Below, in pieces: positions 1,774 to 27,440 of a stretch of DNA of 42,334 nucleotides (position 1 is the first letter of the stretch; every line of letters starts with the position of its first letter). The stretch spans positions 1 through 42,334 of the IMG/VR virus record IMGVR_UViG_3300031749_000010, one strand, 5' to 3'. The notes beneath the pieces are model-generated. The model was not told the origin of the DNA, did not search any database, and was given only the letters and a program-made list of their open reading frames with translations. Made by a program: the position numbers and the translations under genes. Origin of the DNA: a virus.

Positions 1774-1782
1774 AGCTGTTGT

Positions 1783-1798: not shown

Positions 1799-1840
1799 CT
1801 TAGGTCCTGGCCAATTGAGTAATGAAAACAGGAACTGGCA

Positions 1841-2614: not shown

Positions 2615-2734
2615 ATGCATATAGGAATAAGAAAGGGAATCAGGGGCCGGTGGGGGCTTTTTATCCTCCTCCTGGTGTTCCTGTGGCCCGTTTTGGCCTT
2701 GGCCTTAAAACTTGTAATAGGAATAGAAAAATGA
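2615..2734 (+). CDS. small single-pass membrane protein (39 residues)
   Basis: ATG at 2615 opens a 39-codon frame with AAGG six bases upstream. The product has a basic N-terminus (MHIGIRKGIRGRW), then an uninterrupted hydrophobic segment at about residues 14-36 (LFILLLVFLWP and LALALKLVIG), and a short IEK tail. The pattern is positive-inside, as for a single transmembrane helix with its N-terminus in the cytoplasm. Its TGA stop (2732-2734) overlaps the ATG of the restriction enzyme at 2731, an ATGA junction typical of translational coupling. The function is unknown. It could serve as a leader that sets expression of the downstream enzyme, or be a small membrane effector of the cassette. It could still be a chance frame in a 218-base gap. 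Confidence 0.5.
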   Translation: MHIGIRKGIRGRWGLFILLLVFLWPVLALALKLVIGIEK

Positions 2735-5988: not shown

Positions 5989-6026
5989 ACTGTCCGCCTC
6001 CACCCCTAGGGAAGCTTTCCGTACAT

Positions 6027-7895: not shown

Positions 7896-8348
7896 TCACA
7901 ACCCTCTCCCTGTTCTTTGTTCCATGACCTGCTTTTTGGCGAGGTGAAGGTCCCGGGGATACTCCAGTCCCCGGTCAAAAACCCGAGATTCCCAGCGTCC
8001 GATGCCGAAGTGCCCTACCAGGAAATTAACGGCTGTTTCCACCGGGAAGGCCTTGCAGGAAAAGATGTCGGCGCTGAGGTAGGCCCGTTTTGGGTAGGTG
8101 TGGATGCTGATGTGGCTCTCGGCGATGATGACGAAACCAGAGATACCCGCATCCTCCGGAGGACGTGGAGGTTGTGGGGTGAATTGAAAAGCATACGGCG
8201 GCATGATCTTGGTCATGCCAATAATGTCAGGGGCCCTGTCCAGAAAATCATATATGGAAGACAGGTCAGCCAGGCGCATGGGGTCGCATTCGTAGCCGTC
8301 CAGGACCAGATGAGGCCCATAAGCTTCTATTATCCGCTGTTCCCTCAT
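7896..8348 (-). CDS. SpeD-like pyruvoyl-dependent decarboxylase (AdoMetDC family)
   Basis: This 150-residue protein belongs to the short prokaryotic S-adenosylmethionine decarboxylase family (class 1B), which self-cleaves to make a pyruvoyl cofactor and normally supplies decarboxylated AdoMet for spermidine synthesis. The catalytic set is intact: Ser78 (ESHISIHT, pyruvoyl precursor), His83 (processing) and Cys98 (FSCK). Their spacing matches Ser63, His68 and Cys83 of the Thermotoga maritima enzyme exactly. The usual HT-W/F-P-E is HTYPK here, so the conserved Glu is Lys87, and the Gly after Cys98 is also Lys. The insertion near 55-66 is proline-rich. Phage SpeD homologues that decarboxylate ornithine or arginine instead of AdoMet are known; the altered pocket makes that possible here. 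No other polyamine gene is nearby. GGAGG lies nine bases before the ATG; an out-of-frame ATG at 8352 is better spaced. Confidence 0.85.
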   Translation of the reverse strand: MREQRIIEAYGPHLVLDGYECDPMRLADLSSIYDFLDRAPDIIGMTKIMPPYAFQFTPQPPRPPEDAGISGFVIIAESHISIHTYPKRAYLSADIFSCKAFPVETAVNFLVGHFGIGRWESRVFDRGLEYPRDLHLAKKQVMEQRTGRGL

Positions 8349-8366: not shown

Positions 8367-8729
8367 CTATCCGTCCCGGCCGATGAAATAAACCACGGCT
8401 TCAATCACATATCCGCTTGTCCCCGGGTCTCCCGAGATGGTGCATTTCAGGGTATTGCGGCCAGCGAGAATGCGCCGGATGGTGACCCCAAACTCATGGT
8501 TATAAGTGCCATTGGCAGCCTTGGCGGTGCCGTCGAAAATCTGGAAGCCGTCGTCGTCCTCCAGGGTCAACTGTGCCGTCACGCTGTTGGTGTTGGCCCC
8601 ATTGCGCTGGTGAATCCAGAGCAGTTCCCCCTCATACGGCAGGGGCACGCTCTGAATCAAGCCGCCCCCCGAAGCCCCATTGGGGAAGGTGAAGGTATAC
8701 CGTTTCCGGTGATAGCGCTCATATTTCAT
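8367..8729 (-). CDS. small beta-rich virion-type protein, unknown
   Basis: This 120-residue protein is predicted to be mostly beta strand. It begins with a basic MKYERYHRKRYTFTFP and continues with alternating hydrophobic strands and Gly/Asn turns. No cysteine cluster beyond one residue, no membrane segment and no recognised domain are visible. It starts by an ATGA overlap with the end of the giant polyvalent gene, so the two are probably translated together. The composition resembles small decoration or fibre-associated proteins elsewhere in this unit, but that is only resemblance. Confidence 0.55.
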   Translation of the reverse strand: MKYERYHRKRYTFTFPNGASGGGLIQSVPLPYEGELLWIHQRNGANTNSVTAQLTLEDDDGFQIFDGTAKAANGTYNHEFGVTIRRILAGRNTLKCTISGDPGTSGYVIEAVVYFIGRDG

Positions 8730-11700
8730 GATCCGGCCTCCTCCCGTTTAAGCCTGAACCCCGTCTTCCAGGGGGTGGGTATTTTTATAAAAGTGCCGTA
8801 AGCTTCCCGGGCCCTTTCATTCTCCTCTTTGGTGGGACGGTCCCAGATAGTTTTTGAGCGAAGCGCCTGTATCTTTTTGGCCTGGGCTTTCCGCTCCATT
8901 TCCTCCTGGACAAGGCCTTTCTCAGTCCTGATGGCTTGGACAAAACGATTGCGCCGCTTGTTTTCTTCCATCTGCGCCAAGGCCGGCCATTGCATCTCCA
9001 GTTTTTTGAAGGCCCCGGCGGCCGGGTTCAACAAGATGGCGCTATACTGGTCCATGTCCTTCTTCTGCCGCCCGGCAGGCACCTTGGAGGGAAGCCCAAC
9101 TTTGGCCGCCACTTCCGGGTCTATGAACATGTTTGTCTTCTGAGCAATGGCCAGCAGTTGTGCGTCGATTTTGTCCAGTTTTTCGCGCTTCTGCTCCGGT
9201 GTCAACTTGGCGTCGTTATAAATAGTGTCACGTTGACCTCTGAGATCGCCCATCTGGGAGATAGCTTTGCGGGCCACCCGGGCAAACATAATCTCGGGAT
9301 GGGACCGTAGCTGCTTGTTAGCCTCCTCCTGGTTGCCGGTTTTCAAGAGCATTTTCCAGGCGGCTTCGGCCTGCACCACGTCTTGGTATTTTTCAAAAAA
9401 ATCCGCCACAGAGCGGGCCCGATATCCCGTGGGAGGTTTGGAGAAAAATGCCCGCACTCCCCACACCTGCTCAATGGCGTCCTGGGCCGGCTGGGGCATA
9501 TCTTTTAAAACGCCGGTCTTACGCAGTATGACATCCACTCCCGGGAGCAGATAATTGGCCCCCAGGCCGCCCCCCAAACTGCGGATGAAGTGCTCCATCA
9601 TTACCGGGCTGATACCGGTGGCCTCTCCAAAATGTTTGCCCCAGGCCTTGGCGGCCTCGGTGGTCCAGGGCTTGGCGCGCAGTTGCACCGGCAGTCTTTT
9701 CATAGCTTCATCCTCAATTGCCCGCCCCCGGAAGAAATCGTAGTTGGCTTGGAATTCAACAATGGGCCGGGCCAGGGTGGGCACGATTTCCGGCATGGCG
9801 GCCTGCCAGGCCGCTTCCAGGGCCTGCTTCACCCCTTTCCCCTCAGATCGTCCTAAAGCCCAATCCAGCATGGCCACTGGAACTGAGCCGAACATGATCC
9901 CTGCCTCGAAGGGTTTGGGGATGCGGAGGATAGGCTGGTCCGGCCCCAGGGGGATGTGCCAGAAGTAGTTGCGCTCCCAAGGCTCCAGTTCCTTGTAGCG
10001 CTTGTCCCGAGAGGCCAAAAGGTAGAGTAAAATAGACGCGGTGGCCAGAAGGCTCAGCCGGAACCAGACTTTCTTCCGGTTCGGCCCCTTAAGCTCCGTC
10101 ACCAGCTTGTCCACCCCTTGAATCGAGGCATTGAAGAAAGGAATGAGCATCCCCAAATAGCGGACGGCGGGGTTGCCCCCAACCCTGCTGAAATCCAGGG
10201 TGGTGCGCCGGGCCTCATGAATAGCCTCAGCATGGGTCAGCCCCTTCTGTCTGGCCTGCTTGTAAATGGAAAACCTCGTCATGTTCTCCAGGAAGGCCGC
10301 TACGTGGCGCAGGGCCTGGAGGGGATGAGGAAAATAACGGAATTTGGACGGGTCAGCAATCTGCTCCGCCGTAATCTTCTCAGGGTCGGTAAAACTCTGA
10401 GCCAAGGTCGCCAAGGGCCCGCCTCCCGCCTCCCACTGGCGGCGCAGTTCCATGGCCCCTGGGTCCTTGCTGAGAAGCTGAAAAGCGTCCTTGAACCAGA
10501 GCAGGGGATTGAAGCCGAAACTGCTAAAGAGCCACGCCTGAATGATATCTCGCACCGGGTTCCGGGAGACGAACTCCGGATTTAATACCGCCCCGGTCCG
10601 CAGGAGATCAGCCGGGAATTTGGCGATTTTCATAAGCACCCCCACTTCTGAGGGCATCATGTTCACCGCCGCGTTATAGATATCCGGCGGCACCTTGAGC
10701 CAGCGTAATACCCCGTCCCGGTAATAAGGCAGGGTGCCCGGCTCCGGCGGGAAGGGGCTACGCACCCAGAGTTTGGTATAAAAATCCCTAAGAGCAGGCC
10801 GGGCCGTAGGCGCAAACTCCAGGAGAGGTTGCAACTCCGGCTTGGACCTCAGAAATTCCTCAAACTTGGCGGTGGTCTGGGGAGCCGTGCGCCGGCTCAC
10901 ATCCCGATCGGTGATGAACCGGTTGACAAACTCCGCCACCTGCTCCTCTCGTTTCCTCACATATCTGCGATAACTGACGGGGGTTCCCGGCCCACATCTC
11001 TGGTCGGCGATCCGCCGCAATTCCCGTTTCATCTCCGGAGAGCCCTGGTTGATGAGCAGATTTTGGAGTTTGTATCTCTGGTCCAGGGCGTGCCCCAATT
11101 CATGGGACAGGACTTTCTCGGTCGTGGCGAAGCGGGTGACGATCTCCCCCCCGTCATCCACTTCCTGGCCGTTGACTATTTGCTGTTTTATCCAGCCCTG
11201 GAAATATCCTAACTTGTTCTTCCCCAGGGAGTGGAGCGTCTTGATTTCAAACCCCAGGGCCTTCGCCAATCTCTCCAACTGCGGTCTCAAAACGCTGTCG
11301 ATCTCCTGCTTGAGGGTAACTGGCACCGGTATAAACTTAGCAGGGATTTCCTTGATTTCTGCCATATCCGCATACTTGGCAAGGACGTAAAGCCCGCGGA
11401 AGACCCGATTGCGGGCATAGGCAAAGTTGGCCTTGTAGGCCATCTCAATAAGCATCTCCAGCGGGTCCAGAACCAGCTTTTCAGACCCCTTGATCCGCTG
11501 AATAACCTTGCCTTTCACTCCGGCCCCGCCAGCATTGGCCGCGATGTAATCATCCAGGCCCTCCAGGAGGCGTTTAAAGGGGATGTAGAATTGGTTCCGG
11601 GCCTTAATGTCTTCATAAAGCTCTGGTGATAGCATCCCCACCCGGAGCAGAGGTTGCAGAATCATGGTATCGGCCCACTCCCGCACTGAGGCCGCTATCT

Positions 11701-14700
11701 CATCCAACTTGGCGAAGCCGTCCTCCCCATATTTAGCCTTGAGAGCAGTGATCACCGCCTGGCTGTCCTCTGGATGCACCCCCTTGATCTCGCCTGGTAG
11801 CCGGTTGCCATATTCACCGGCCAATTCCAAATCCCTCTGGGCGGGCATCAGGACGTGGAAGAGATCAGAGTTGACTTCTGCCAAGGGTGCCCCCCGCTGC
11901 TGGGCGATTTCCTTAAGGGGTTCCAGACGCCGCACCAGAGAGTCACCGGCCACATCAGGGGCCTCACCACTGAACACCATCTGGTTGGTTTTTTCATCAA
12001 ATTCCATGGGGTCCAGATAAACATGATCCCCGGTAATGCCTTGGCGCACCCGCCCCTCAATGCCCCGCATGAAACTCAGGCAGTTGACGATGTTCTCCCC
12101 CGCTGGAATCACCAAGCCCTCTTCCGCCAACTTCGTGCCGGTGCGCAGGGCCAGCTTCTCCCATGCCCCCCACCGGTCCACCAAGCCCGCATAGAGGTCA
12201 TCCAAGACTTCTGGCAGGCTGGCAACACCATCCTTTAATTTCTGCACAAGCCCTTTCTTCTCGGGCAAGGCGATATAGGTGTCCCGATAGCGGTCCACCA
12301 TCTCTTGGGGTGTGGCTGCGTCAAATTCTGCCTGAGTCTCAAAGAGCCGGAACGGGAAGCGATCTGCCTTGTCACTCGATGGCTTTTCAAAAACCTGGGG
12401 CGCTTGGTCGCTGGCCAAAAGGCCGCTTGGGGTTACGATATCCAGCAGCCAATCGCCCAGCTTCATGTTCCCGGAGGTCAGGTTGCTGGTTAACACGAAG
12501 GAAGGTGTAAAGATGACGGCCCTGACGCTGTCGAAGGACTTAGCCCGGGCCTTTAGCTTGGCCGCCACTTTTTCGGGGGCATCGTTGAGCAAGCTGGCAT
12601 GGTGGATTTCGCAGACATTGACCTCATTCTGGCTGTTTAGGTAGGCCACGGCAATTTCATCACTTCCCAGCTTGAGGCTGGGCCCCAAGGCCGCCACATC
12701 CGCAGAAGTGGCTATTTTCTCCTTCCTGGTGAGGAACCGGGACATGTTCCGGGCATTGTAATGGGCCTGGACAGCAGTGCCAGCCTGCCAATCATAAAAG
12801 CTAAAGCTGGTGCCGTCGATGACCACAAACTCACCCATCTTATCACCCAGGCCGGGAAGATTGGCGATGCCATTTTTCCACAGTTGCGCCGCGGCAATAT
12901 CTTGCCTGCTCATGGCGGGGTTGCCGCTCGGATGGTTATGGATGAAATGCACCTTGGCGGCTCCCAGGCGCTCGGCCCGGCGCACGATATCGTAGACCAT
13001 CTGCCCGGTAAACGCCACGTAGTGCAGAGCACCGCTGGAGATGGCAGTGTGGGCCAGGATTACCCCATCTTTATCGGTGTAGACTGCATGGAAATTCTCT
13101 TGACGCGGGGTGCGGAAAATGGCCATCATCTCCGCCAATTCCTTGGCCTCCTGCCCCGGGGTCAGTCGGAATCCGGCGATGTTGACATATTTTCGCTCTC
13201 CGTATTCAAGGGCAACCCGAGCCTTGTATGACTTGGCCGAAAGCCGATCCGGCACGGTTCCGGTTCGTAGCGCTTCGATTTTTTTGGAAACCTCGGTGGC
13301 ACGCTTAACGCCTTCTCGAATAACGGCACGACTTTGCCATTCTGAGCCAAAAGCAAAAACCTCCTCTTCTTTTCTCAATTCTTCGGCAACCTTGGGGTTC
13401 GGCGCCAGCCGCCGGCCCACGCCGCCAATGTTCACCGTTTTGAAAAGCGGCTCCTTTTCCGAAACCCGGAGAGATTGCTTGCCCTGATTCTGGCTCTCGA
13501 AGAATTGATCATATTCATTTCGCCTGAGCGAAAATGTTACTCCGAATTTGCTTCTTAATAATTCCAAGACTTCCCTCAACCTGCTTCCCGGAAAATCTGC
13601 TGCCATATTCCTGCGATAAGTGCTGTGGAATGTGCCTACCAGATTCAGGAGGTCCTGATCCAGGTAGAATTTGCCGCCCCGCGCCCGGGCTTGGGGGACT
13701 TCAATCCTGTATGTGTCCCCCTCTCCCGGCATTACTCCGATTCCCAGATCATGGGTGTGGTTGACGACATGTCTGTATTGGCTCCTTCTCAGCCAGTCCG
13801 CCGTCTGGTCAACTGTCATGGTGACGTATTGCAGGTTCTGGTCTTGGGCGGGATTGTAGGTCAAGGGCATCAGCTTGCCGAAATCGGTCCTGCCATCGGC
13901 CCGGGTAAAGTAGACGTATTGGCCTCCCCTGATAGTATTTGAGAGCAGATTCCCGGTCACAATAAAGCGGGTCTCATAACCTCCGAGGCGAAATTCTTTG
14001 GGCTTCTTAAGACGGAGCCAGCCGCTCCGCGTTTTATCATCTTCGCCGATCCATTTAAGTTCCCTGAATCTGCCTCTCATGATGTCATAAGCCTCTTTCT
14101 GGTTATCCGAAGTAGGCTTTTCCACACTTACCGAATCAATTTCGTGATGCTCATCCCGATGAATCTCGGTCTGGAGATTGGTGGCCTGGGCGAATTCATC
14201 CAGAATTTTTTTCAGGTCCTCTTCAGAAAAGATAATGCTGGCATCCCAATGCTCTCCAGGGCCAAACTCCTGGGGCTTGCCCCATATCCGCTCCCGCATG
14301 AACTGGCGCATAGTGCCAGTGCGCTGGCGCTGCGCCGTGTTTTCGGCCATTACCAGCTTGAAGTTAGACAGCTTGGCGGGGTTGCCGACCCCGGGGCGAT
14401 ACAATAGGTTGGTAAGCACCCGACTCCAGATGGCTCCCGAGGTCATCCGCGTATCCCATCTCCCCCCAATTAGGAAGACCGCCAACGCCCCCTTCACAGC
14501 CTCCCAATCCCGCATGGCAATTTCCACGATTTGGCGGCGGCGGTCTGCGTCAGGGATGGTCTCTTCGAGCCCATTCACCCAAGCCTGAAAATCCTGCTCC
14601 ACCTTGGTCAGCAGGTCTTGTTTGAACTCTTCCGCGGTTTTCCCTTTAAGGGTCTTGTCAATGAGGCTCTGCAATTCCTTGGCGGTGTAGGGCTTGCGCT

Positions 14701-17700
14701 GCACCTTGGCCCGCACCGTTTCCATATAGGTGGGCTGGAGCAGGCCGGAAGCAGCATGAGGATCGCCCTGCACCATGGTCATTTTGCCCACGGTATCCGC
14801 CTGTAAATCCACCGCCTCGCTTTCCAGGTTATATTCCCCCGCTTGCTTGAGAGCCTCGACGTAATCATTATAGCGGGCATCAAAGGCCTGAAAGAACTTC
14901 TCCTGGTTCTCCACCGATTCGATGGACACATAACCGGTTACCCGTTTGACGAGAGCCCCATCGTCCGGGAAGTTTCCCAGGAGGCGTTGCACCCGGCCAT
15001 CGAAATCGGCGTCCATGTAGGCACGGTCGATATACTCACTGACCGCATCCCCTGTAATGGCCAGCATGGCCTCCGGGTCCTCAGCGAACATCTCTGCCAA
15101 TACCCGGTCGCCGTATTCATTCATATTATCTTTGACGTTATTCAGGGTGTAAGCGGTCTCCCCCTTGGCGGTGACATTGGCGGCCAGGGATTTCAGCTTC
15201 TTAGTCAGCACGATAAGGGGGCGCACCTCGGTTGGCAGGGAACTGAGGGCGATTTTGTAAATCGGCAGATGAATCTGACCGGTGCGGTGGATGCGCCCTA
15301 ATAACTGGATGACGTCGGAAATGTCCAAGGCCAACTGCCCAAGAATCATCACCCGTTGGCGCTGGTCTCTGAACCGTTCGCTGGCGTGCAGGGACAGTCC
15401 TTCGGCCGCGGCGCTGTTGACGATGAGTGCGTCCAGATCACCGTTGTTAAACCGGTTGACCGGGGTGTTCTTGTCCCGTCTTTCCTTATCTGACCGTTTT
15501 CGCAAAAGCAAGTCGTCGGTGTTCCAATCTCCCGCCCATTGTCGGCCGGTGATTTCTCCCACCTTCAGGCCGGCTTTGGTGAGGGCCTGTCCGATAACGT
15601 CGATGGGCGTGGCCCGCAATTCACTGGTAGTCTTGTTCGCCAGGTCTGCCAATTCATAGTAAGCCTGCTGCAAGTTCTCCGGGAGCATGGATATATTAAT
15701 CCGGCGCAGTTCTGTGCCACCACTGTGAATAGTCACTCGGTAAGAGAGGGATTTATCAACGGCCCGCTTTAAAATCTCCGAAAAGCTGAGGTTTAGAGGC
15801 TCACCTTCTTTCAGGAGGCCAGTATTTAGGGCATCATCAATAAAGGCATCCATGGTGTTGTAACACCCGATGACCACTTTCTTGTTATCCTGGGCCTGGG
15901 ACAGGGCCTCTTTGACGATGTTGTCCACCCGCAGGGCAAAGAGAAGCTGGCTCACCATGTTGTGCATTAAAGAGCCGAAATGGGTGTAATCGACGTTGGT
16001 GATGTCTCCCGGTCTGACGTCTTCTCCTTGTTCAACCAGGGTCGGCCCCAGCACATCCTTTATCCATCGTTGAAGGTCCTTGCTGAACCGCACCAACTTC
16101 CTGGCTACCAGGGTAACCTTGTCCGACTGTTCCCGCTCGAAGTCTTTGGTGGACAGGTCCACCTTGGGTTCCAGGGACACCCCGGCATATGATAACTCCA
16201 ATCGGCTCATCTGGCCGTTGATGGCCAGTTGGTTGGCGATCCATTCCTGGAGAGGCACCCCCCCAGATTGCACCACGTTAATCAATTGATTCATGTCCAC
16301 CGCGGTGCCGATGTCGGTCTTAAAATATAACGGCAGGTTGTCGGGTCGCTTGGCGTAAGTGGCTGACGAGTAGAGAACCCCCCGGGCATGATGCAGAATT
16401 TCAGTAATAAACTGGCGGCGCTTGCTACCCGCCGGAGCTTGGCCTCTTCTCCCGCTTTGTCCTCCCCCGGCAGCCTTGTGGGATTCATCCAGAATAACCA
16501 GAGCGTTCCCCGCCAAGGCATTTATCAAATCATGTTTCGCCGTCCTGTTGCCTTGAATTTGATAATAGGTGGTGAGAACCCCATTATAGCCTTTGGTAAG
16601 TCTTCGGGCTCTCATGGCCTCTTGGATGGCAGGCATGTCCAATTCCTTGAGCACGGTTCCATCCAACCGATAAATCCGGGCCCCTGCTGCATTTGAGGCA
16701 ATGACCAAGGGTTTATATTCACCCCAAAAAGCCGGGGGCTTATCCTCAGTGATATCCTCAATATCCCGATAGATATCAGAGAAAAGCTTGTCTTGAGCGG
16801 TGAAGAAAATAGGCGTCAGGCCTTGGCTGCGGGCATAGCGCATCATGCCTGCCACCACCCGGCCCTTCCCCAAGCCCGTCTGATGCCCCATGATGAACCC
16901 GCCAGGACCGTTCTCAATGGCATTGATGGCTAAAGCCACGGTCTCCGCCTGTTCGGCCCCCATAGCCCTATAAAGTTCTTCTGTTGAGGCATAGTTAAGC
17001 TTATTTGCTACATATTGGTCTACTTTGCCGACCTGCGCCTCCAATTCGGTGATGTAATTATGCAGCGCCTCGGCCATGAACTTCGGAGCCATGGAATTAA
17101 GCGTGGGGCCTTCAGAAACCGGCTTGTAGATTACTTGGTGAGCGCCGCTTTCTGGCTCTATCTTGGGGGGCAGCGGCTCGGTTTTCTCTGGGGGCCGTTC
17201 TTCCTTGGTGGGCTCCACTGCGTTACGAACTACGTCTTTTACTCCTACTGTGACCGGCCCGGCCTTGGTCTCTATGGTAATTCTGGCCCAATCGTGAGCG
17301 CCCCGCACCTTGGTAATCTGCCCCACGGTGCCATCTGCGGTCTCTACCCAGCGGCCCGTTTCGATAACCTTGATATTTTGCCACTCAAGGTCTCCCCAAT
17401 TGATAGGAGAGGCCTCTCCCTCTTTAACAATTAATGCTTTTGCCGATGGCTCCAGAATGGTAATGGTAGTCCCGTTCGGCAATTGGAGAATGGCGCCCGG
17501 GCCCGGAGGCTGCACTCCCGGTGGAACTGGAATATCCACCACGGTTCCATCCACCAGTTGCCCCTTAATGATGGTGGGGGCGCCACCTTCCGGCGACGTG
17601 GTGCCTTTGGGCGGCTTAGGACTCTCAGGAGGCTTGGGTTCCTGCTGCGGCGGCGGTCCCGGGGGTTCCTGCTGCGGCGGCGGAGCTTCCTGCGGCGCCG

Positions 17701-20700
17701 CCGGCTTGCCCTCCTCAATCTCGCTTTTCAGCAGGTTATAAACGTCTTCAAAAGTCTGGGCCCGCTCGATCTGGTCCGGCCGGTGTGGCGCGGCGGTTTG
17801 GTCCGGCATGGCCTTGCGTCCCTCAATAATGAGGAGCCGGATGGGGAAACTCGTTCCCATTCGCCGGTAAACGGTCCCGTCTATATTGATGTGATGAGTG
17901 ACGTTGTAGTGGCTATAAAGATAATTGAAAAAGGTGCGGTCCGTGCCGCTTAACTCATTGGTCGGTTTGCCCAGGTTGGTTTCGAAGCTGTGGCCCCCGA
18001 TAATGATGGCCGCCCGGCCGGTGTCGTCCATGGCCTGGAGGGCGTTCAGGGCAATGAGGTGTTCCAGCTTGCTAATCTTATAACCGTCAAAGTCGGTCTT
18101 CTTGTCCAGGGTGCCGAAGGGCGGATTCATCAGCACCACGTCGAAGCTCTTGGGATTGACGCCGGGTTTGCCAACCTGGCCGATGGCGTTTTCAGTCGTG
18201 GTGTTAAAACCTTGGTGCTTCAGATGCTCGGCGCGTAGGGGGTCTAATTCGTTTGCCAGAGTAATTTGCGGATTGGCCTCGATGAGGAGCATCCCATTGC
18301 CCGCCGTGGGTTCGTAAACATAATCCTCTTTGGTCAATCTGACGGCCCGGCTCATGAGGTAAGCCAGGGGCACCGGAGTTGAATAGGCTTGGTTCCTGAT
18401 GGTTTCTGAGGTCCGGGAGGTCAGGGCTGGCTGCTTCTCATAAAGATTATTTAAGACCTCGAAGGTGTCATGGGGTGACATTCCGAGGTCCTGGCCCGCT
18501 GCTGCCATCTCCCGGGCCTCCATGACCAGTGCCAGTTCAAAGGCTTCCTCGATGCGCTTGCGATAAGACGGCAACTCATCCTGGGACAGGCTATAGGCTT
18601 TTTTGGCATAATCCACCACCTGTTGGGCGCCGATAGGCAGGCGGCGAACGCGGATTTGTCTTCTGATTAACTTCTGGAATTCCTTGGCGAGGTTGATGGT
18701 AGTAAATTCATGTCTTGGCCGTTGCTCAACTTCGTTCTCTTTATCTTCCAGGATTTGTTCAATTCTCTCCTGTAATGGATCAGCTTGCATTTTAAGCAGC
18801 AAACCTTCACGCCGGGCCCGGTCGATAAGCTCCATAACCTCGCCCCGGGTGATTCTGCCCCTGATAATGTCATCGGCGACTTGCGCCGCATCAGCGTCTA
18901 AAATGCTTCGGGCCGTGGCCTTGTTGCTGGCGTCTTCAATAAACCGCCTTCTGATTTCGGTAAGGTCTGGCGGCGGCGGAGGAGGCGGAGGCGGGGGCGG
19001 CGGGGCGGCTTTTTTCTCGGCCAAGGCCTGTTTTACCGCCGCCACGTCGATGCCGGGGTAAGCCATGCCCATGAGCACGGCTACAGGAGCGCCCTGCCGA
19101 TATAACACTGCCGGCTTTCCCAGATCATCAGCCATCCGTATTTCGTCAAACTTCACCAAGTGGTGAAGTAGGTCCAGGCGATCTTTGTCAAAAACCACAT
19201 ACCGACTGGCGTCATCAGTGCTCACCAGGACCTTGGCGTCTTCACCCTCGTCCCATTGCCCAACGATATTTATCTCATAAATTGCTTCAGCTACCGCATT
19301 ATTCCATAATTCATCTATCTGTTCTTTGGTAACTCTCTTAATAGGATTTTGTTTTTCCAGCCCAACCCGCCGAACTAATCCGGGAGACGCTACGATGGCG
19401 CTGGCCGGGATGAGCATACGACCGTCGGTGTAATATTCTGGGGCTGCGGAAGCGTTATTGCCCCAGGCTCGCCGTTTGGCGGTGCTGTATTGGTGAGGCT
19501 CAATTTTCTCGATGATTTCCTGGGTGAATTCATGGTCGATATATTCACTCGGCTGGGCTTCCGCGGTTCCCTCCTTCAAAGCTTTTATGATGTCATTCGT
19601 GTGGCGCAAAACCTCGGCGGTATTGAGCCCTGCCCTGATTAGGGCTTGTTTCAAGTCATTCGCCAACTTGACGCCGGCATCTTCATTCTTCAGCCAGTCT
19701 CCAGCCTTGCTGATGATGTCCGCCAACTCCGCGGCCAACTCCGGGTTCACAACGTCGATGTCATAGCCGGTGTCTTTAAAGGCTGTGGTGATGGCTTCCC
19801 GGATTTTTTTAATATCGGGAACCGTTCCTTTATCCGTTTCTGGAACCGTTCCTTTATCCGTTTCTGGAACCGTTCCTTGGGATTCCATCGGCTCTGGGAA
19901 CTTTCCTGCCTCCTTGGCTATTTCCCAGCGGCGCACCCCCTGGACCAGACCCATGTTGCCAGCTATCAGATCGTGCAACTCCCTGGCCGCTCCGGGGTCA
20001 CCGGTCTCCTCCACCTCCTGCATGAGGTTGTAAAGCCGTTCGGCAATGGGTCTCAGGCCGCTCCGGTCCTCTGGGGGCACCGTAAACATGTCCCGCAGGG
20101 TCTCCCGGTTGGCGGCCAAGAGATTGGAAAGCTCCTGAGTATCCCGGGGGTCGCCATACTGATCGACCCTTCTGGCCAGCACTTTGACTTTCTCCAGGAG
20201 ATCAGCCTGAGCCATGGCGGCGGGCCGGGCCGGCACCGGCTCTTTGCCAATCTCAGAGGCCACCGTAGTTTCATCCCCCGTGGTCGCCATGGGTTCCGGA
20301 CGGGGGCCTCCAAATTCCGGGGGCAATACCTGCTTGACGATGGGCCTGCCGGTAGGACCAACTACCTCTGGTGGAGATGGAGGCGGCGTAGCGAGGTCGA
20401 TAGGCTTGCCCTGGGCGTCCAGGATCGGTCCGGCGCTGGGCGGTTTGGCGCTGGCAGGTCCGCCCCAGGGCCCTAATATGGTGGAGGCACCCGGACCGCC
20501 CATGCCCGGGGTTCGGAACTCGGCTGGCAATGCCGCCTCTATTCCTTGGCGTTGCACCGTGTCCACCAGCCATTTCTCCTCAGCGGTGCGCTGGTGGGGG
20601 GGTTTGGACAGGGCTTCTTCATAATCTGCCAAAACATTCCATCTGGCCGCAACATATTCCGGGGTGCGCGCTATCTCGCCGCCAGGGCCATAAAGAGTTG

Positions 20701-22111
20701 GAGACCCGGGAGGGCCGGGCTCCAGCGGCCCGCTTCTTTGCTCCGGCTGGACCACTCCGGTATAGTCGAAACCAGGCAGAATTTCCTGTTTGCCTGTTTG
20801 GGGCCTGACCTGCTCTTCCGGCGCCAGGATAGGCTGCGCCAAGCCCGCCTGGATAGTGGGGCCGGTGCGGTAAATAGGGAACCCCATGGGAGATGGCGGC
20901 GGCGTTTCCGGGGCGGGAACCGCGGTGGCCTCGGCCCGTTCCTGTTTGTAGCCTTCAAGGATATCCTTGACCCTTCCCCGTATATTCGGGATGGACTCCC
21001 TGGCATGTTCGCCGGCGCCGGCCAGTCCTCCTACCGCGGCGCCGACCAAAATGCTTTCCACCACGCCCTCCAGCAAGTCCTGCCGAGGTTCATAGCCATA
21101 CTTTTTGAAAGCATTCTCTATGATCTGTTGAGCGCCTTCCGTGGTTCCCTCCGTGGCGATGCTGTCCAGGACTTTGCGGACTAAGGTCCAGCCATGCTTG
21201 CCCCGGAAAATATGCTCAAAAGACGCAGCCTCAAAAGCGCCGGCAACCACCCCGGTCCCCAATTCCGTCCAGACCCGTTGCCCCCAACTGATCTGCTTTC
21301 CGGGATTTTCTTTCTCCCATTGCCGAAGTTCTTCTTCCGCCCCGGCCGCCTCCATTGCCATGCCGGTGCCATAACCGGTGATCTTGGTCATTAGGTTTAT
21401 CTTGGAGGCGATCTTGGCCGCAGCGGCGGGGGTGGCGGCTGTGGCCAAGGCCTTTTCCAGTCCCAGGGCCTTCCGGGCCAGAGCCGCGGCCCCTCCCCCG
21501 TAAACAAAATATTCAGCTATGCTCCAAAGACCGGGAGGAAGTTGCGCAGCCCAGAAATTCGGATTGGCAATGGTCTCTTTAATCTGTTCGCTGACCGGTT
21601 TTTCCCCTCCCGTAAGGTCAATGGTCGACTCCGCCTTTTTGGAGGGCGCTATTTCCGGTGTCCGTTGCAGCGCCTCGATGTTCTCAATAAGTGGCGTAAC
21701 GGCTTGCTTGACCGTTTCGCTGCCCAACAAATCCGCACCAATAATCTTGGCGATTTGATAGGGCAGCTTCCGGAAGGACAAGGCCCCATACGCAATCCCT
21801 CCCAAAGTTTCTTCGGGCAGGGATTTCTCCTCCAAGCGTTCTTGAGGGATGGCCCCGGCGTATTCTTTGCCGTAGACCTCTGGAAGGGCGGCGGCCTTGA
21901 ACGCCTCCCATGTTCCTTTTTCGCTCGGCGTTTTGTCCTGAGCCGTCAGCCTGTCGTAGAGAGATTGTTGTTCAGGACTCAGCGTAGCCTTCTCAAGGCT
22001 GGGGCGGGTTTCCCCCCAAAGGCTCTCCTCCGGCTTTTGCCAACCGAGGGGAGTTTGCCCAAGGATGCTTTTTAGGGATTGGTCTTTGTCGTCATTTTCA
22101 AGAATAGCCAT
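8726..22111 (-). CDS. giant polyvalent protein (methylase, SF2 helicase, RadC/JAB, zincin), 4,461 residues
   Basis: A single unbroken 13.4-kb frame. Domains in order are as follows. The N-terminal region has helical and small-residue-rich stretches (1-380), then Pro/Gly-rich linkers (about 385-640) and a 12-proline run near 1036-1048. An N6-adenine methylase follows, with motif X near 1240 (QAYSTP), motif I EPTAGNG at 1267 and NPPF at 1329. A Strawberry-notch-type SF2 helicase has HQTGLGKG with Lys1749, DESH at 1875-1878 and GRIHRTGQ at 2272-2279. A RadC/JAB domain has His3058, His3060, Ser3068 and Asp3071. An HExxH zincin is at 3670-3674. The C-terminal helical region near 3960-4170 resembles polyvalent-protein domain LPD38. 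P1 DarB combines a methylase and helicase and is packaged to block restriction. A similar ejected role is inferred. The start is ATG 22111, with GAGG five bases upstream; the GTG at 22117 overlaps the Shine-Dalgarno. Confidence 0.85.
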   Translation of the reverse strand: MAILENDDKDQSLKSILGQTPLGWQKPEESLWGETRPSLEKATLSPEQQSLYDRLTAQDKTPSEKGTWEAFKAAALPEVYGKEYAGAIPQERLEEKSLPEETLGGIAYGALSFRKLPYQIAKIIGADLLGSETVKQAVTPLIENIEALQRTPEIAPSKKAESTIDLTGGEKPVSEQIKETIANPNFWAAQLPPGLWSIAEYFVYGGGAAALARKALGLEKALATAATPAAAAKIASKINLMTKITGYGTGMAMEAAGAEEELRQWEKENPGKQISWGQRVWTELGTGVVAGAFEAASFEHIFRGKHGWTLVRKVLDSIATEGTTEGAQQIIENAFKKYGYEPRQDLLEGVVESILVGAAVGGLAGAGEHARESIPNIRGRVKDILEGYKQERAEATAVPAPETPPPSPMGFPIYRTGPTIQAGLAQPILAPEEQVRPQTGKQEILPGFDYTGVVQPEQRSGPLEPGPPGSPTLYGPGGEIARTPEYVAARWNVLADYEEALSKPPHQRTAEEKWLVDTVQRQGIEAALPAEFRTPGMGGPGASTILGPWGGPASAKPPSAGPILDAQGKPIDLATPPPSPPEVVGPTGRPIVKQVLPPEFGGPRPEPMATTGDETTVASEIGKEPVPARPAAMAQADLLEKVKVLARRVDQYGDPRDTQELSNLLAANRETLRDMFTVPPEDRSGLRPIAERLYNLMQEVEETGDPGAARELHDLIAGNMGLVQGVRRWEIAKEAGKFPEPMESQGTVPETDKGTVPETDKGTVPDIKKIREAITTAFKDTGYDIDVVNPELAAELADIISKAGDWLKNEDAGVKLANDLKQALIRAGLNTAEVLRHTNDIIKALKEGTAEAQPSEYIDHEFTQEIIEKIEPHQYSTAKRRAWGNNASAAPEYYTDGRMLIPASAIVASPGLVRRVGLEKQNPIKRVTKEQIDELWNNAVAEAIYEINIVGQWDEGEDAKVLVSTDDASRYVVFDKDRLDLLHHLVKFDEIRMADDLGKPAVLYRQGAPVAVLMGMAYPGIDVAAVKQALAEKKAAPPPPPPPPPPPPDLTEIRRRFIEDASNKATARSILDADAAQVADDIIRGRITRGEVMELIDRARREGLLLKMQADPLQERIEQILEDKENEVEQRPRHEFTTINLAKEFQKLIRRQIRVRRLPIGAQQVVDYAKKAYSLSQDELPSYRKRIEEAFELALVMEAREMAAAGQDLGMSPHDTFEVLNNLYEKQPALTSRTSETIRNQAYSTPVPLAYLMSRAVRLTKEDYVYEPTAGNGMLLIEANPQITLANELDPLRAEHLKHQGFNTTTENAIGQVGKPGVNPKSFDVVLMNPPFGTLDKKTDFDGYKISKLEHLIALNALQAMDDTGRAAIIIGGHSFETNLGKPTNELSGTDRTFFNYLYSHYNVTHHINIDGTVYRRMGTSFPIRLLIIEGRKAMPDQTAAPHRPDQIERAQTFEDVYNLLKSEIEEGKPAAPQEAPPPQQEPPGPPPQQEPKPPESPKPPKGTTSPEGGAPTIIKGQLVDGTVVDIPVPPGVQPPGPGAILQLPNGTTITILEPSAKALIVKEGEASPINWGDLEWQNIKVIETGRWVETADGTVGQITKVRGAHDWARITIETKAGPVTVGVKDVVRNAVEPTKEERPPEKTEPLPPKIEPESGAHQVIYKPVSEGPTLNSMAPKFMAEALHNYITELEAQVGKVDQYVANKLNYASTEELYRAMGAEQAETVALAINAIENGPGGFIMGHQTGLGKGRVVAGMMRYARSQGLTPIFFTAQDKLFSDIYRDIEDITEDKPPAFWGEYKPLVIASNAAGARIYRLDGTVLKELDMPAIQEAMRARRLTKGYNGVLTTYYQIQGNRTAKHDLINALAGNALVILDESHKAAGGGQSGRRGQAPAGSKRRQFITEILHHARGVLYSSATYAKRPDNLPLYFKTDIGTAVDMNQLINVVQSGGVPLQEWIANQLAINGQMSRLELSYAGVSLEPKVDLSTKDFEREQSDKVTLVARKLVRFSKDLQRWIKDVLGPTLVEQGEDVRPGDITNVDYTHFGSLMHNMVSQLLFALRVDNIVKEALSQAQDNKKVVIGCYNTMDAFIDDALNTGLLKEGEPLNLSFSEILKRAVDKSLSYRVTIHSGGTELRRINISMLPENLQQAYYELADLANKTTSELRATPIDVIGQALTKAGLKVGEITGRQWAGDWNTDDLLLRKRSDKERRDKNTPVNRFNNGDLDALIVNSAAAEGLSLHASERFRDQRQRVMILGQLALDISDVIQLLGRIHRTGQIHLPIYKIALSSLPTEVRPLIVLTKKLKSLAANVTAKGETAYTLNNVKDNMNEYGDRVLAEMFAEDPEAMLAITGDAVSEYIDRAYMDADFDGRVQRLLGNFPDDGALVKRVTGYVSIESVENQEKFFQAFDARYNDYVEALKQAGEYNLESEAVDLQADTVGKMTMVQGDPHAASGLLQPTYMETVRAKVQRKPYTAKELQSLIDKTLKGKTAEEFKQDLLTKVEQDFQAWVNGLEETIPDADRRRQIVEIAMRDWEAVKGALAVFLIGGRWDTRMTSGAIWSRVLTNLLYRPGVGNPAKLSNFKLVMAENTAQRQRTGTMRQFMRERIWGKPQEFGPGEHWDASIIFSEEDLKKILDEFAQATNLQTEIHRDEHHEIDSVSVEKPTSDNQKEAYDIMRGRFRELKWIGEDDKTRSGWLRLKKPKEFRLGGYETRFIVTGNLLSNTIRGGQYVYFTRADGRTDFGKLMPLTYNPAQDQNLQYVTMTVDQTADWLRRSQYRHVVNHTHDLGIGVMPGEGDTYRIEVPQARARGGKFYLDQDLLNLVGTFHSTYRRNMAADFPGSRLREVLELLRSKFGVTFSLRRNEYDQFFESQNQGKQSLRVSEKEPLFKTVNIGGVGRRLAPNPKVAEELRKEEEVFAFGSEWQSRAVIREGVKRATEVSKKIEALRTGTVPDRLSAKSYKARVALEYGERKYVNIAGFRLTPGQEAKELAEMMAIFRTPRQENFHAVYTDKDGVILAHTAISSGALHYVAFTGQMVYDIVRRAERLGAAKVHFIHNHPSGNPAMSRQDIAAAQLWKNGIANLPGLGDKMGEFVVIDGTSFSFYDWQAGTAVQAHYNARNMSRFLTRKEKIATSADVAALGPSLKLGSDEIAVAYLNSQNEVNVCEIHHASLLNDAPEKVAAKLKARAKSFDSVRAVIFTPSFVLTSNLTSGNMKLGDWLLDIVTPSGLLASDQAPQVFEKPSSDKADRFPFRLFETQAEFDAATPQEMVDRYRDTYIALPEKKGLVQKLKDGVASLPEVLDDLYAGLVDRWGAWEKLALRTGTKLAEEGLVIPAGENIVNCLSFMRGIEGRVRQGITGDHVYLDPMEFDEKTNQMVFSGEAPDVAGDSLVRRLEPLKEIAQQRGAPLAEVNSDLFHVLMPAQRDLELAGEYGNRLPGEIKGVHPEDSQAVITALKAKYGEDGFAKLDEIAASVREWADTMILQPLLRVGMLSPELYEDIKARNQFYIPFKRLLEGLDDYIAANAGGAGVKGKVIQRIKGSEKLVLDPLEMLIEMAYKANFAYARNRVFRGLYVLAKYADMAEIKEIPAKFIPVPVTLKQEIDSVLRPQLERLAKALGFEIKTLHSLGKNKLGYFQGWIKQQIVNGQEVDDGGEIVTRFATTEKVLSHELGHALDQRYKLQNLLINQGSPEMKRELRRIADQRCGPGTPVSYRRYVRKREEQVAEFVNRFITDRDVSRRTAPQTTAKFEEFLRSKPELQPLLEFAPTARPALRDFYTKLWVRSPFPPEPGTLPYYRDGVLRWLKVPPDIYNAAVNMMPSEVGVLMKIAKFPADLLRTGAVLNPEFVSRNPVRDIIQAWLFSSFGFNPLLWFKDAFQLLSKDPGAMELRRQWEAGGGPLATLAQSFTDPEKITAEQIADPSKFRYFPHPLQALRHVAAFLENMTRFSIYKQARQKGLTHAEAIHEARRTTLDFSRVGGNPAVRYLGMLIPFFNASIQGVDKLVTELKGPNRKKVWFRLSLLATASILLYLLASRDKRYKELEPWERNYFWHIPLGPDQPILRIPKPFEAGIMFGSVPVAMLDWALGRSEGKGVKQALEAAWQAAMPEIVPTLARPIVEFQANYDFFRGRAIEDEAMKRLPVQLRAKPWTTEAAKAWGKHFGEATGISPVMMEHFIRSLGGGLGANYLLPGVDVILRKTGVLKDMPQPAQDAIEQVWGVRAFFSKPPTGYRARSVADFFEKYQDVVQAEAAWKMLLKTGNQEEANKQLRSHPEIMFARVARKAISQMGDLRGQRDTIYNDAKLTPEQKREKLDKIDAQLLAIAQKTNMFIDPEVAAKVGLPSKVPAGRQKKDMDQYSAILLNPAAGAFKKLEMQWPALAQMEENKRRNRFVQAIRTEKGLVQEEMERKAQAKKIQALRSKTIWDRPTKEENERAREAYGTFIKIPTPWKTGFRLKREEAGS
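19818..19877 (-). repeat. 24-bp tandem repeat inside the polyvalent gene (2.5 copies)
   Basis: Two perfect 24-base copies (19818-19841 and 19842-19865) and half of a third (to 19877) lie head to tail. On the minus strand they encode repeats of the eight-residue unit GTVPETDK in a linker before the methylase domain. Because the unit is a multiple of three, copy-number change would lengthen or shorten the linker without breaking the frame. Confidence 0.85.
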
Positions 22112-22118: not shown

Positions 22119-23933
22119 TCATCCCTTTCCTGCTACTGCCACTTCGTCAAGCCGGGAAGGACGAACCTCATAGGGGTTCAGTAGCATTCGATTCCTTAGC
22201 TCCGACATATTGAATGGCGGTGCCGCCGTTGGCGTCATTCCCCCTGGTATTGAAGGGGGAGTGCCAGGGGCAGGGTTGGGCGGCCCCTGGTCCATCGGGA
22301 CAGAAACTTTAGGCTCTTCACGTATGGCAGGGATACTGGAAGGTGCGGCCGGGACAGCCGGGGCGGATGTGCGGCCCTCGGCCTCTTCTATCCACTTGCT
22401 GGCCTGCTGCCAGCTTTCCGGGGTGCCGAATATTTTTGTTCCCAAGGCACGTAGACCGGTCGTGATGCCGGTTTCCCGCGTATACTGCGCTTCCGGCGCC
22501 GTCAGCCGGCCGGGCACATTTTGCCAGGCGCGGACGACGCTTTCCCGGAGGCTGCTTTCCGGTGTCCCCGGCGCTGGCCCTTGGGCGGGACTCGGTGATG
22601 CCCCCGGTGGAGGGCTGGAAAGCAGGCTCTTGCCATATTCCGCCAGACCGCTGGTATAAGCCTGAAAAGCCGCTTTGGCCTTGGCGCCTTCATCTGGACT
22701 CAAGGCAAAGGCAACCTGCTGTCCTGTTGCCAGATTCTTCTTGTTCAGGGCATCCAGGACCATATAGGCCTTGGCTTCCGGCGAGGGGTCATTGGGTCCG
22801 CCCCGGAAGGTCAGGCCAGCTTGGGCTACCATCTCTGGTTTCAGCAAATCAGCCATGGAAACAGTCTGCACCTGATGAATGGGGATATCTTGTTTGACAA
22901 TTCCTTCCCCCATGCCGGTATAGGTCCGGTAAAAGTATCTGCCATCGGGGCCCTGGAACATTCCCGGCAATCCTCCCGGAACCGGAGTAGCCCCTTGGTC
23001 CTTGCCCGAGAGAATTTCTCCCGGGACCTGTTGTCCATAGATAAACTGTCCAAAGCCTTTCTTCTCCGGGATCAACCCTGCTTCCGTCGGGGTCAACCTG
23101 ACTACGTTTACAGTCCCATTAGGCGTTTTCTCATATCTACCCCAGAAGTTTCGGCCATCGGCGTCCTTCATCTCCCGATAACCTTGCACAAACATGTGGA
23201 CCGGAGAGGTATCGACGGTGCCGCCTACCGGGATTTCCCGCAACTTTTGGTAGCTTTCCGTGTTTAGCAGTTGATTGCCCTCAACAATCGTCCGCAGATC
23301 ACCCTTGGCTAATGACATGCGCTCCTGGTCGGTAAGGGGCCGGCCGAGTTGCTGTCGCATCGCGGCGGCTACCTTCTCGACCGTATTGGGCCATTCAGTC
23401 TGCATCTTGGCCACCGCCAGATCACGGGCCACGGAGTTTGCCGCCCTTTGCGGGTCTATCAGGGATTCGGCGTAATATTTTTGGGTGATGGGCGGCAGCG
23501 GCGCCCCTTCATCCAAGCTGGCCGCATGACGCACAAGGTTTTCGAATGTCTTCCGGTTTTGTTCTTTGACTTGTTGCTGGGCCTGGAACTGGTAAGGCAG
23601 ATTCTTGGCCGCGATGTCAAGAGCGTCCTTCCTGGCCCCCAATTGGTTTTTATGCAAACCCAGAATGAGTTTCGTGAGATTGTCCCTTTCCTTGTCCAAG
23701 CTGGCGAGGGTGCTGGTATAAGCCTTGACCTTGTCATTATCTGAGGCTTTGCCTGTTGGCCTCCAGCCGGTCCGGAGACTCCACATTCTCCCTATCTGCG
23801 CCTGCTGAATGAGTCTGTTGCGGGCCTCATCTACCTGTCTCAGTCTCTGTATGGCATCTTTCAGTGATAGCCCAACGTCTTCCAGGTCCTCATTATCTCC
23901 CTGATATCCTCTCAGGATTTCTTCATCCGCCAT
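22119..23933 (-). CDS. putative internal virion protein, 604 residues
   Basis: No known domain is recognised. The N-terminal third (about 1-210) is helical and charged, with heptad-like segments (LKDAIQRLRQVDEARNRL, LDKERDNLTKLILGL). The middle is mixed. The C-terminal 200 residues contain long Pro/Ala/Gly-rich linkers (PPPGASPSPAQGPAPG) like those in the neighbouring giant protein. The stop codon (TGA at 22121-22119) lies ten bases before the giant ATG. Its location directly upstream of the giant gene and its linker style suggest that the two products are incorporated together, possibly as ejection proteins. This is positional inference only. Confidence 0.6.
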   Translation of the reverse strand: MADEEILRGYQGDNEDLEDVGLSLKDAIQRLRQVDEARNRLIQQAQIGRMWSLRTGWRPTGKASDNDKVKAYTSTLASLDKERDNLTKLILGLHKNQLGARKDALDIAAKNLPYQFQAQQQVKEQNRKTFENLVRHAASLDEGAPLPPITQKYYAESLIDPQRAANSVARDLAVAKMQTEWPNTVEKVAAAMRQQLGRPLTDQERMSLAKGDLRTIVEGNQLLNTESYQKLREIPVGGTVDTSPVHMFVQGYREMKDADGRNFWGRYEKTPNGTVNVVRLTPTEAGLIPEKKGFGQFIYGQQVPGEILSGKDQGATPVPGGLPGMFQGPDGRYFYRTYTGMGEGIVKQDIPIHQVQTVSMADLLKPEMVAQAGLTFRGGPNDPSPEAKAYMVLDALNKKNLATGQQVAFALSPDEGAKAKAAFQAYTSGLAEYGKSLLSSPPPGASPSPAQGPAPGTPESSLRESVVRAWQNVPGRLTAPEAQYTRETGITTGLRALGTKIFGTPESWQQASKWIEEAEGRTSAPAVPAAPSSIPAIREEPKVSVPMDQGPPNPAPGTPPSIPGGMTPTAAPPFNMSELRNRMLLNPYEVRPSRLDEVAVAGKG

Positions 23934-23944: not shown

Positions 23945-25009
23945 CTATTCAAGCCCGACCCCGTAGAAGGTGACCGGGACAATGGCCCAATCTTCAGCAT
24001 TGAATTTTTCCGTATCCTCGTCGTCAAACCGTTGCGTAGGCCGGCTGGCCGTTATGTCCTTGAGCACCACCACCCGGTCGTTGCGCTTGTAAGTCGCAAA
24101 ATCTGAGGATTTGGCGCGGATCTCCTGCCCCCGCCATTTAATTACATACTCATCGTGGTCCTCGCCCTGGATGACTTCTTTGACAATCCCGGAGGTATAA
24201 TAAAGCGTGTCCATCCAGTTGCCGCTAAAGAGGTAAGGACTTGATTCCTGCTCCCCCCAGGGCAGGTTCGGGAAGAGGCGCACTGCCAGGCCCACGAATT
24301 CTCCGGGAAAAGGATAGAGGTCTTCCTCTTTCAGATTTACCCTCAACCACCAGAGGTTATCGGTCTGTTCCCCAGCCGCAACTGGCGGCGCCATGGCCTT
24401 GACGCCCTTTTCCACCAGCCAGATGTGATTGAAGAGGACGTATTCTCTCTTTTGTCCCTTGAAAAATTTTTCAGGCACTGGCGGAGCCGGACCCTTGCCG
24501 GGCTTGACAGGAAGGTCCTTCGGCTCTGTGCCTGCCTCAGTTATTGCCACAAGCATTTCCACCGCACCAAAGGGGATTCCAGACAGGAAATCAATCCACC
24601 CCACCACCATATCGGCTTCCTTTTTATCAAGCACACCTTCCGGGGTGCGCCAGCCCTGCTGGAAGGCCCGCATCTCATACTTGGCCTGGTAAATGATATC
24701 GGTGCGCCAGCGCTGCGCCGGCCAGACCATCAACTTCTCAAACATATGATCCAGGCTGTCCCTCGCCGTGTCCATGACGTTCTTGATCTTCTTATCCCTG
24801 ACGGCATACCAGGTAGGGGCCGGGTAGGGCAAAAAAATGCCCATGTGCGCATAGAGATTGACCGCCTCATGGGATAGCCTGGTCTTGGTTTCTTCTATGT
24901 GCTCCAAATGATTTTCGTATTGATCTTCCTCAAAAAATTCTTCTTCCGCCTCCCCCTCGAAGCGTCCACCACTCAGGTCATCATCAAAATCATCGAACAG
25001 GTCCACCAT
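23945..25009 (-). CDS. hypothetical virion protein with acidic N-terminus
   Basis: This 354-residue protein starts with a very acidic 32-residue stretch (FDDFDDDLSGG, EAEEEFFEEDQ) and continues as an aromatic-rich, probably globular protein (WYAVRDKK, WPAQRWRTD, NHIWLVEKG, LWWLRVNLKEEDLYPF). A Pro/Lys linker (PVKPGKGPAPPVP) divides two halves near residue 180. The C-terminal end contains a small beta-rich segment (YVIKWRGQEIRAKSSDFATY) that recalls SH3/Tudor-like barrels. The gene follows the preceding coiled-coil gene by two bases and has little Shine-Dalgarno of its own, implying coupling. The role is unknown; it lies in the putative internal-protein block. Confidence 0.55.
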   Translation of the reverse strand: MVDLFDDFDDDLSGGRFEGEAEEEFFEEDQYENHLEHIEETKTRLSHEAVNLYAHMGIFLPYPAPTWYAVRDKKIKNVMDTARDSLDHMFEKLMVWPAQRWRTDIIYQAKYEMRAFQQGWRTPEGVLDKKEADMVVGWIDFLSGIPFGAVEMLVAITEAGTEPKDLPVKPGKGPAPPVPEKFFKGQKREYVLFNHIWLVEKGVKAMAPPVAAGEQTDNLWWLRVNLKEEDLYPFPGEFVGLAVRLFPNLPWGEQESSPYLFSGNWMDTLYYTSGIVKEVIQGEDHDEYVIKWRGQEIRAKSSDFATYKRNDRVVVLKDITASRPTQRFDDEDTEKFNAEDWAIVPVTFYGVGLE

Positions 25010-25011
25010 AA

Positions 25012-26172
25012 TCAGTCGCTCACAATGGTTTGCTCTACGATCTCCCGGTAGTTGTCCTCGTATTCTGCATTTTGATACGTCTTCTCTTGTGCCGTATAAC
25101 CGGCGATTCTGGCCTGGGACTCCGCCTCGTTGATCTCTATTTTGGCCCGGGAGCGGGCGGCAATGGCGATAGCCCTGGCCAGGCCTACCCCGTATCTCTC
25201 TGAACCTTCTTCTACGGCTTTCTGGAAGATAGTTTCTACCTCCTTCTTGGCCACCATTAGGTCTGCCTTGGCATTATCAACTCTAAGGGCTTCCAGAGTC
25301 TTTTGCCCTTCCAATAAACGCCAAACTTCTGCCTGCAAGGCGGCTTCCGTGTCCCGGCGAATATTTTCCACCAGAGACCGCCGCTCCCACAAACTTAGCA
25401 TGTCATCCAGGTTTCGCTGGATATATTCTCTGGCCTCCTGGATTTCCGCCTTTTCCACCCCCAAACGGATGCCCGCCAAACAGCGGGTGATGATGTCCGC
25501 CATAATCATGGCAATGTCCGAATTCAGCGTGGCTTTTTCCGCCTCGGTCATCACCACCTCCAACTCCTCCTGAACCACCCGCAATTCCGCTTGTTCGGCT
25601 TCAATTTCGGCGGTGAGAGCCCGGATATTGGCCCGAGCAACCTCTATCTGGGTCCTGGCCTTCTCCGCCTCCAATTGCTTCTGATCCACCATTTCGAAAA
25701 ACACTCGGGCATAAATATCCTGACCCTGCAATTCTGCTTTCTTGGCGGCCAGTTCCGCCTGGAGCCGCTCCACTTCAACCTGTTCTTTTTCCACCTCAGC
25801 CGCGTATTCCCGAGCGGCCATAATGAATTGTTTTACTTTGGCGTCATACTCCTGGACGGCCAGGACCAAAAGGTCGGCGGCGTGCTTGATGGCCAGGGCT
25901 TGCCTTTGGGCTTCAATCCTGGCCAAGGAGTTTTTGCGGTCTTGGGTCACTTCCGCCAAGTCGGCTTCGTGCAGGAGGTTGCGCTGCGCAACGGACGCCT
26001 CCAGTTCGGCGTCGATAATGGCCAGAAACTGTTTCGTGCCTCCGATGCTGATGAGGTTTTCCAAGTCCTCGACTTCCGGCAAGCCCAGACCAAGCAGGTC
26101 AAAACTCTGCCAAATGGCCCTATCCCGGCGGTCGGTGCGGTCCCGTAAGTTTGTTATCCGTGAATCGGCCAT
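25012..26172 (-). CDS. long coiled-coil virion protein B
   Basis: This 386-residue protein is almost entirely Ala, Glu, Lys, Arg, Leu and Gln, with continuous heptads from about residue 50 to 365 (VEVERLQAELAAKKAELQ, LTAEIEAEQAELRVVQEELE). There is no membrane segment and very little Pro or Gly. It and the next gene upstream form a tandem of two similar-size coiled-coil proteins between the fibre genes and the internal-protein block. Such rods could be ejection-conduit proteins, as T7 gp14/gp15 are proposed to be, or tail rods. No family is recognised. The alanine-rich composition would also suit an extended helical bundle. Confidence 0.6.
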   Translation of the reverse strand: MADSRITNLRDRTDRRDRAIWQSFDLLGLGLPEVEDLENLISIGGTKQFLAIIDAELEASVAQRNLLHEADLAEVTQDRKNSLARIEAQRQALAIKHAADLLVLAVQEYDAKVKQFIMAAREYAAEVEKEQVEVERLQAELAAKKAELQGQDIYARVFFEMVDQKQLEAEKARTQIEVARANIRALTAEIEAEQAELRVVQEELEVVMTEAEKATLNSDIAMIMADIITRCLAGIRLGVEKAEIQEAREYIQRNLDDMLSLWERRSLVENIRRDTEAALQAEVWRLLEGQKTLEALRVDNAKADLMVAKKEVETIFQKAVEEGSERYGVGLARAIAIAARSRAKIEINEAESQARIAGYTAQEKTYQNAEYEDNYREIVEQTIVSD

Positions 26173-26176
26173 ATCC

Positions 26177-27391: not shown

Positions 27392-27440
27392 GAAACCGCC
27401 CCTCAATGACACCAATCGCCCTTATCGAGCCCAGGCCAGG

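Follow-up and report, generated by a model that had tools for sequence, protein, structure and literature searches.

The gene studied here raises the question of what a phage would do with a protein of more than four thousand residues, and where such a protein would act. The sequence examined (the window) is a 42,334-base IMG/VR virus record, a fragment, of which this single gene takes about one third. An earlier note on this DNA had described an uninterrupted frame of 4,461 residues, and this was confirmed: the frame is open throughout, from 22117 to 8726 on the minus strand over 4,463 codons counted from a GTG, and the ATG at 22111, preceded by GAGGTG and the likelier start, gives exactly 4,461 aa (about 496 kDa). 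Residues and motifs are numbered below from GTG 22117. GC content by codon position (0.61/0.42/0.66) is as coding DNA should show. The giant is the last large gene of a minus-strand block of head and tail genes that includes a portal-like gene (phrog_332) and weak matches to major capsid, SU10-type adaptor and head-closure proteins; terminase and replication genes were not recognised in the window, which is a fragment. The features are listed in Table 1.

Table 1. Position of the giant gene, its predicted domains and its neighbours in the window
Feature	Coordinates	Strand	Remarks
Giant polyvalent protein gene	8726..22111	-	4,461 aa from ATG 22111; 4,463 aa from GTG 22117
N-terminal helical region, conserved (res. 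97-400)	20918..21829	-	PHROG 2206 2.5e-8; kept in L016-L018, L096
Predicted gamma-class N6-adenine methylase (res. 1190-1430)	17828..18550	-	TP, EPTAGNG, NPPF
Strawberry-notch-type SF2 helicase-like module (res. 1660-2500)	14618..17140	-	AAA_34 + Helicase_C_4
RadC/JAB domain (res. 2970-3110)	12788..13210	-	RadC 5.6e-12; HxHx7SxxD
MID, first half of C-terminal module (res. 3270-3600)	11318..12310	-	directly precedes LPD38 in 53 other large ORFs
Putative zincin-like metallopeptidase (res. 3600-3790)	10748..11320	-	HELGH 3672, EEQVAEF 3724; between MID and LPD38 module
LPD38 module (res. 3790-4330)	9128..10750	-	Pfam LPD38 4038-4199
C-terminal extension past LPD38 module (res. 4331-4463)	8729..9127	-	common to L016-L018 and L096
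120-aa gene directly after giant	8367..8729	-	71-76% identical, syntenic in L016-L018
604-aa gene directly before giant	22119..23933	-	no sequence counterpart in relatives
Three genes (354, 386, 412 aa) before giant	23945..27415	-	syntenic in relatives

Domains of several unrelated activities were found in this one polypeptide by Pfam, PHROG and alignment. The Pfam matches above cut-off are, in order along the protein, AAA_34 (4.2e-15), Helicase_C_4 (4e-24), RadC (5.6e-12) and LPD38 (1e-34). The helicase and RadC families expected from the motifs were thus recovered, but N6_Mtase, also expected, reached only 0.012 and fell under the cut-off. All the methylase, helicase, RadC/JAB and HExxH motifs quoted previously are present: EPTAGNG at 1269, NPPF at 1331, HQTGLGKG at 1745, DESH at 1877, GRIHRTGQ at 2274, HNHPSGNPAMSRQD at 3060 and HELGH at 3672. 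Weak in Pfam but firm through its homologues, the assignment of residues 1190-1430 to the gamma-class N6-adenine methylases is sound, since the region matches a PHROG DNA methyltransferase family (1.4e-7), its YSTP, EPTAGNG and NPPF motifs are kept in the giants of contigs L016-L018, and N6_Mtase is matched above its cut-off (5e-10) by the homologous part of a protein from an Acinetobacter phage. The helicase module matches both Strawberry-notch profiles and has intact Walker and VI motifs. The HxHx7SxxD signature of RadC and its upstream Glu are kept in all five proteins compared (the giant, L016-L018 and L096), as are HE(L/V)GH and EEQVAEF (PEQVAEF in L096) of the zincin region.

The zincin assignment rests on the HExGH motif, the third Glu and their conservation, and catalysis is putative. 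This region had no match in Pfam and no significant match in the PDB, and sequence searches of solved structures returned nothing useful. Structure prediction of slices, proposed in the earlier note, worked for residues 3600-4352 (pLDDT 82), where both zincin motifs are predicted to be helical, but not for the N-terminus (pLDDT 35); a PDB fold search with the zincin-LPD38 model gave nothing at E<=0.001. Membership of the common phage zincin clade was considered and dropped, the conserved strand-2 histidine of that clade not being kept in the relatives. At the other end of the protein, residues 288-389 match residues 334-433 of the N4 virion RNA polymerase (PHROG 2206, 2.5e-8), although the match is short and a profile built in this analysis scored N4 marginally.

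A single-sequence search of viral contigs returned no relatives of the giant; alignment queries then recovered 237 relatives of the methylase-helicase part and at least 596 of the C-terminal module, of which 80 each were kept. The Strawberry-notch form, published as occurring in a few instances, is therefore common in viral contigs. Three independent contigs (L016, L017 and L018) encode co-orthologues of 4,171-4,723 aa, about 40-65% identical to the giant across matched stretches, with the same domain order and every catalytic motif, so that the exact order and length previously taken as distinctive are not. The phage of contig L096 encodes a shorter protein (2,669 aa) that keeps the N-terminus, RadC, zincin and LPD38 and has no methylase-helicase; a ddrB-ParB domain stands in its place. 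The chassis at both ends is thus constant and the cargo exchangeable. The C-terminal extension was absent in the other phages aligned beyond L016-L018 and L096. The virion block is syntenic between the window and all four of these phages, with capsid identities to the window phage of 53% for the L016-L018 contigs and 66-67% for L096, whereas the C-terminal module and tail-side genes of the window are closer to L016-L018. Since the phage with the closest capsid carries a different cargo, these comparisons suggest that cargo has been exchanged within a fixed frame. Separately, when positions 36288-42265 were compared with L261-L266, the head genes (portal, capsid, adaptor) were nearest contig G004 and the tail and ejection-side genes nearest G001-G003, so that the head and tail modules of the window phage meet at a mosaic joint.

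The LPD38 module, unmentioned in the earlier note, is the strongest link of the giant to known virion proteins. In a survey of polyvalent proteins, Iyer et al. 2017 (PMC5512222) assigned RadC to conjugative members alone and LPD38 to phage members alone, and the giant carries both in one chain. The same combination occurs in L160, L023/L024 and L091-L093, that is, in at least four lineages including that of the giant. We read the giant as an exception to the published RadC rule, which is an observation of that survey and not a definition. Among 80 relatives of the methylase-Strawberry-notch dyad encoded in bacterial genomes, RadC was present in 14, before the methylase in 13 of them, and the LPD38 module was detected in none; the LPD38 half of the rule thus holds in this sample, whereas the RadC half does not, and polyvalent proteins outside the conjugative type can also carry RadC. 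In the open papers searched, the domain combination of the giant is unrecorded. In L091 (16219-16226), and also in L092 and L093, one in-frame TGA splits the corresponding giant into two adjacent large genes; it falls between the methylase-helicase and RadC-LPD38 parts and may reflect fission, a nonsense mutation or readthrough.

In 140 large ORFs the median distance from the end of the LPD38 module (about 560 residues) to the C-terminus is 4 residues, and in 53 ORFs the helical MID stands directly before it with no zincin detected between; these ORF sets were retrieved by the same queries, and the counts are hence not unbiased frequencies. Many of these MID-LPD38 relatives have no enzyme recognised by the profiles used. 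The C-terminal module is common to large genes of Bacillus, Pelagibacter, Vibrio, Escherichia, Aeromonas, Achromobacter and Burkholderia phages, many in number, mostly short-tailed and including the Bcep22-like family, and in annotated phages the gene with the LPD38 module lies within or ends the virion module. Among predicted structures of viral proteins, 59 matched the LPD38 module at E<=0.001, and no solved structure did. In the lineage of the giant the zincin is seated between MID and LPD38, i.e. between the halves of the C-terminal module, which is a new point. An N-terminal LPxGW/F motif was also considered as a general packaging tag and was too rare (present in 8 of 137 giants, where shuffles gave an expectation of 1.5).

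The C-terminal module of the giant could be aligned to that of DC1 gp67, the counterpart of JC1 gp69 (4,515 aa); the protein detected in purified virions, by 51 unique peptides, is JC1 gp69 (PMC9144972). Because this module is common to the Bcep22-like family with its virion-found member, the giant is probably packaged in the virion and delivered with the DNA to counter restriction; counter-restriction enzymes and virion association, as proposed in the earlier note, both find support in homology. For the Strawberry-notch-type relatives no proteomics was found in the open literature. What we infer for the giant is packaging, delivery, each of its activities and its cleavage, and we give a probability of roughly 0.8 to the following reading of it as a phage-type polyvalent protein. 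It would be made late in infection as one very long polypeptide, loaded into the head of a podovirus-like phage and carried into the next host together with the DNA. Packaging and ejection would depend on the two ends (residues ~97-400, and MID with LPD38), which are the chassis, and the middle would be cargo: the methylase and the Strawberry-notch motor would translocate on the incoming DNA and mark it ahead of any attack by restriction enzymes, RadC would have nucleic acid or protein as its substrate, and the zincin would cut the cargo off the C-terminal carrier. Only tentatively do we extend this to a general scheme, in which podophages generally use MID and LPD38 as a C-terminal carrier to package and eject many kinds of fused enzyme cargo and, in the lineage of the giant, a zincin placed inside the carrier releases the cargo after delivery, making a self-releasing protein-delivery system.

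The position of the zincin between MID and LPD38 would equally fit a cut made before or during head assembly, with only part of the protein packaged, as proposed for P1 DdrB, which is processed before packaging (PMC5512222). This alternative differs from delivery of the whole protein in timing alone and the two confidences overlap; we hold it possible but doubtful, as the N4 RNA polymerase likewise has a domain of this kind and is packaged without processing (PMC5512222), and the 53 MID-LPD38 relatives mentioned above have no zincin detected between the two. The giant could instead be made late and stay in the producing cell, methylating progeny DNA before packaging without injection. Methylase and motor are equally suited to replicated DNA, and packaging in this lineage is what we infer; the sharing of the C-terminal module with the family of the virion-found JC1 protein, the lack of a detected LPD38 module in the bacterial-genome copies of the dyad and the place of the gene within the virion block nevertheless make this unlikely. 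That the giant is mainly a structural core or pilot protein of a podovirus, with enzyme domains that are carried along in a decayed state, is in keeping with the candidate internal virion proteins encoded next to it and with the many MID-LPD38 relatives without a profile-recognised enzyme, but the catalytic motifs are all intact in co-orthologues of ~40-65% identity, and we consider it improbable. An assembly artefact or a fusion of frames is practically ruled out by the identical architecture, with all motifs intact, on the three further contigs L016-L018 and by the coding-type GC of the gene.

Delivery with the DNA had also been argued from the neighbouring genes. The 604-aa gene and the Ala/Glu/Gln-rich 386- and 412-aa genes do exist, and the products of the latter two and of the 354-aa gene are candidate internal or ejection proteins. 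The 604-aa gene, on the other hand, had no profile match, and of the genes that lie between a 735-aa gene and the giant it alone lacks a counterpart by sequence in the relatives (a 328-aa frame occupies its place in L016); it therefore supports nothing about an ejected particle. A subtilisin-like S8 protease gene (31748-33160, minus strand, 2.1e-55) lies inside the virion block, and the relatives have syntenic copies with 53-59% identity. Close behind the giant is an S-adenosylmethionine decarboxylase gene (7896-8348, minus strand, PF02675 1.9e-27), a phage-borne polyamine gene of which L096 has a copy in the same position (12567-12992, 53% identical). Positions 1-6000 have a different GC content, as low as 0.38, and include genes for a CI/S24 repressor and for a type IIG-like restriction-methylase of 1,112 aa, both absent from the stretches of the relatives compared; this leftmost 6 kb suggests that the window phage is temperate.

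Compared with known systems, the giant fits the phage polyvalent proteins of Iyer et al. 2017: it is encoded beside late/virion genes and carries the phage-type LPD38, both traits of the phage type, and with its multiple domains this reading, already put forward in the earlier note, is supported by homology. The comparison with P1 DarB (2,255 aa) made there holds for function, that is, an adenine methylase with an SF2 motor and an injected anti-restriction role, but not for family: the DarB methylase-helicase has no significant sequence match to the giant (best E 0.058, against 2e-19 for the DC1 and 1.8e-25 for the VvAW1 giants), the helicase of the giant is of the Strawberry-notch type, and DarB is not matched by the profiles for LPD38, RadC or the zincin. 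The bacterial-genome proteins, mostly of Bacteroidota and commonly 1.6-2.3 kaa, share the methylase-Strawberry-notch dyad, with RadC fused in some, and differ in the placement of RadC and in the undetected LPD38 module described above. For the dyad the closest annotated phage protein is gp3 of Bacteroides phage BS-TP4 (5,391 aa, 31-37% identity), with LPD38 near its end but with InPase and ddrB-ParB and no RadC match; annotated as hypothetical (L002 1511-17686), gp3 is itself polyvalent and joins these two domains and the dyad to LPD38 in one chain. Packaged and injected, the virion RNA polymerase of N4 (3,500 aa) resembles the giant in being very large, in ending the virion block and in the short N-terminal segment, although the giant has no polymerase match and N4 no LPD38 match. 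The DarB-like proteins of the Bcep22-like phages (DC1 gp67, 4,650 aa; JC1 gp69; Bcep22 gp75) are alike in size, in being encoded by the last gene of the virion module and in the order methylase, helicase and C-terminal LPD38 module. DC1 gp67 differs in its DarB-type helicase, N-terminal transglycosylase (none was found in the giant), LPD3 and lack of a RadC match, and only in the C-terminal module does the giant show significant pairwise homology to the Bcep22-type protein. The precise functions of LPD1-40, LPD38 included, were called elusive in the paper that named them. The present comparison gives LPD38 a testable role, that of a constant C-terminal carrier with exchanged cargo, and such a carrier, if it works as proposed, would account for the loading of very large proteins into podophage heads.
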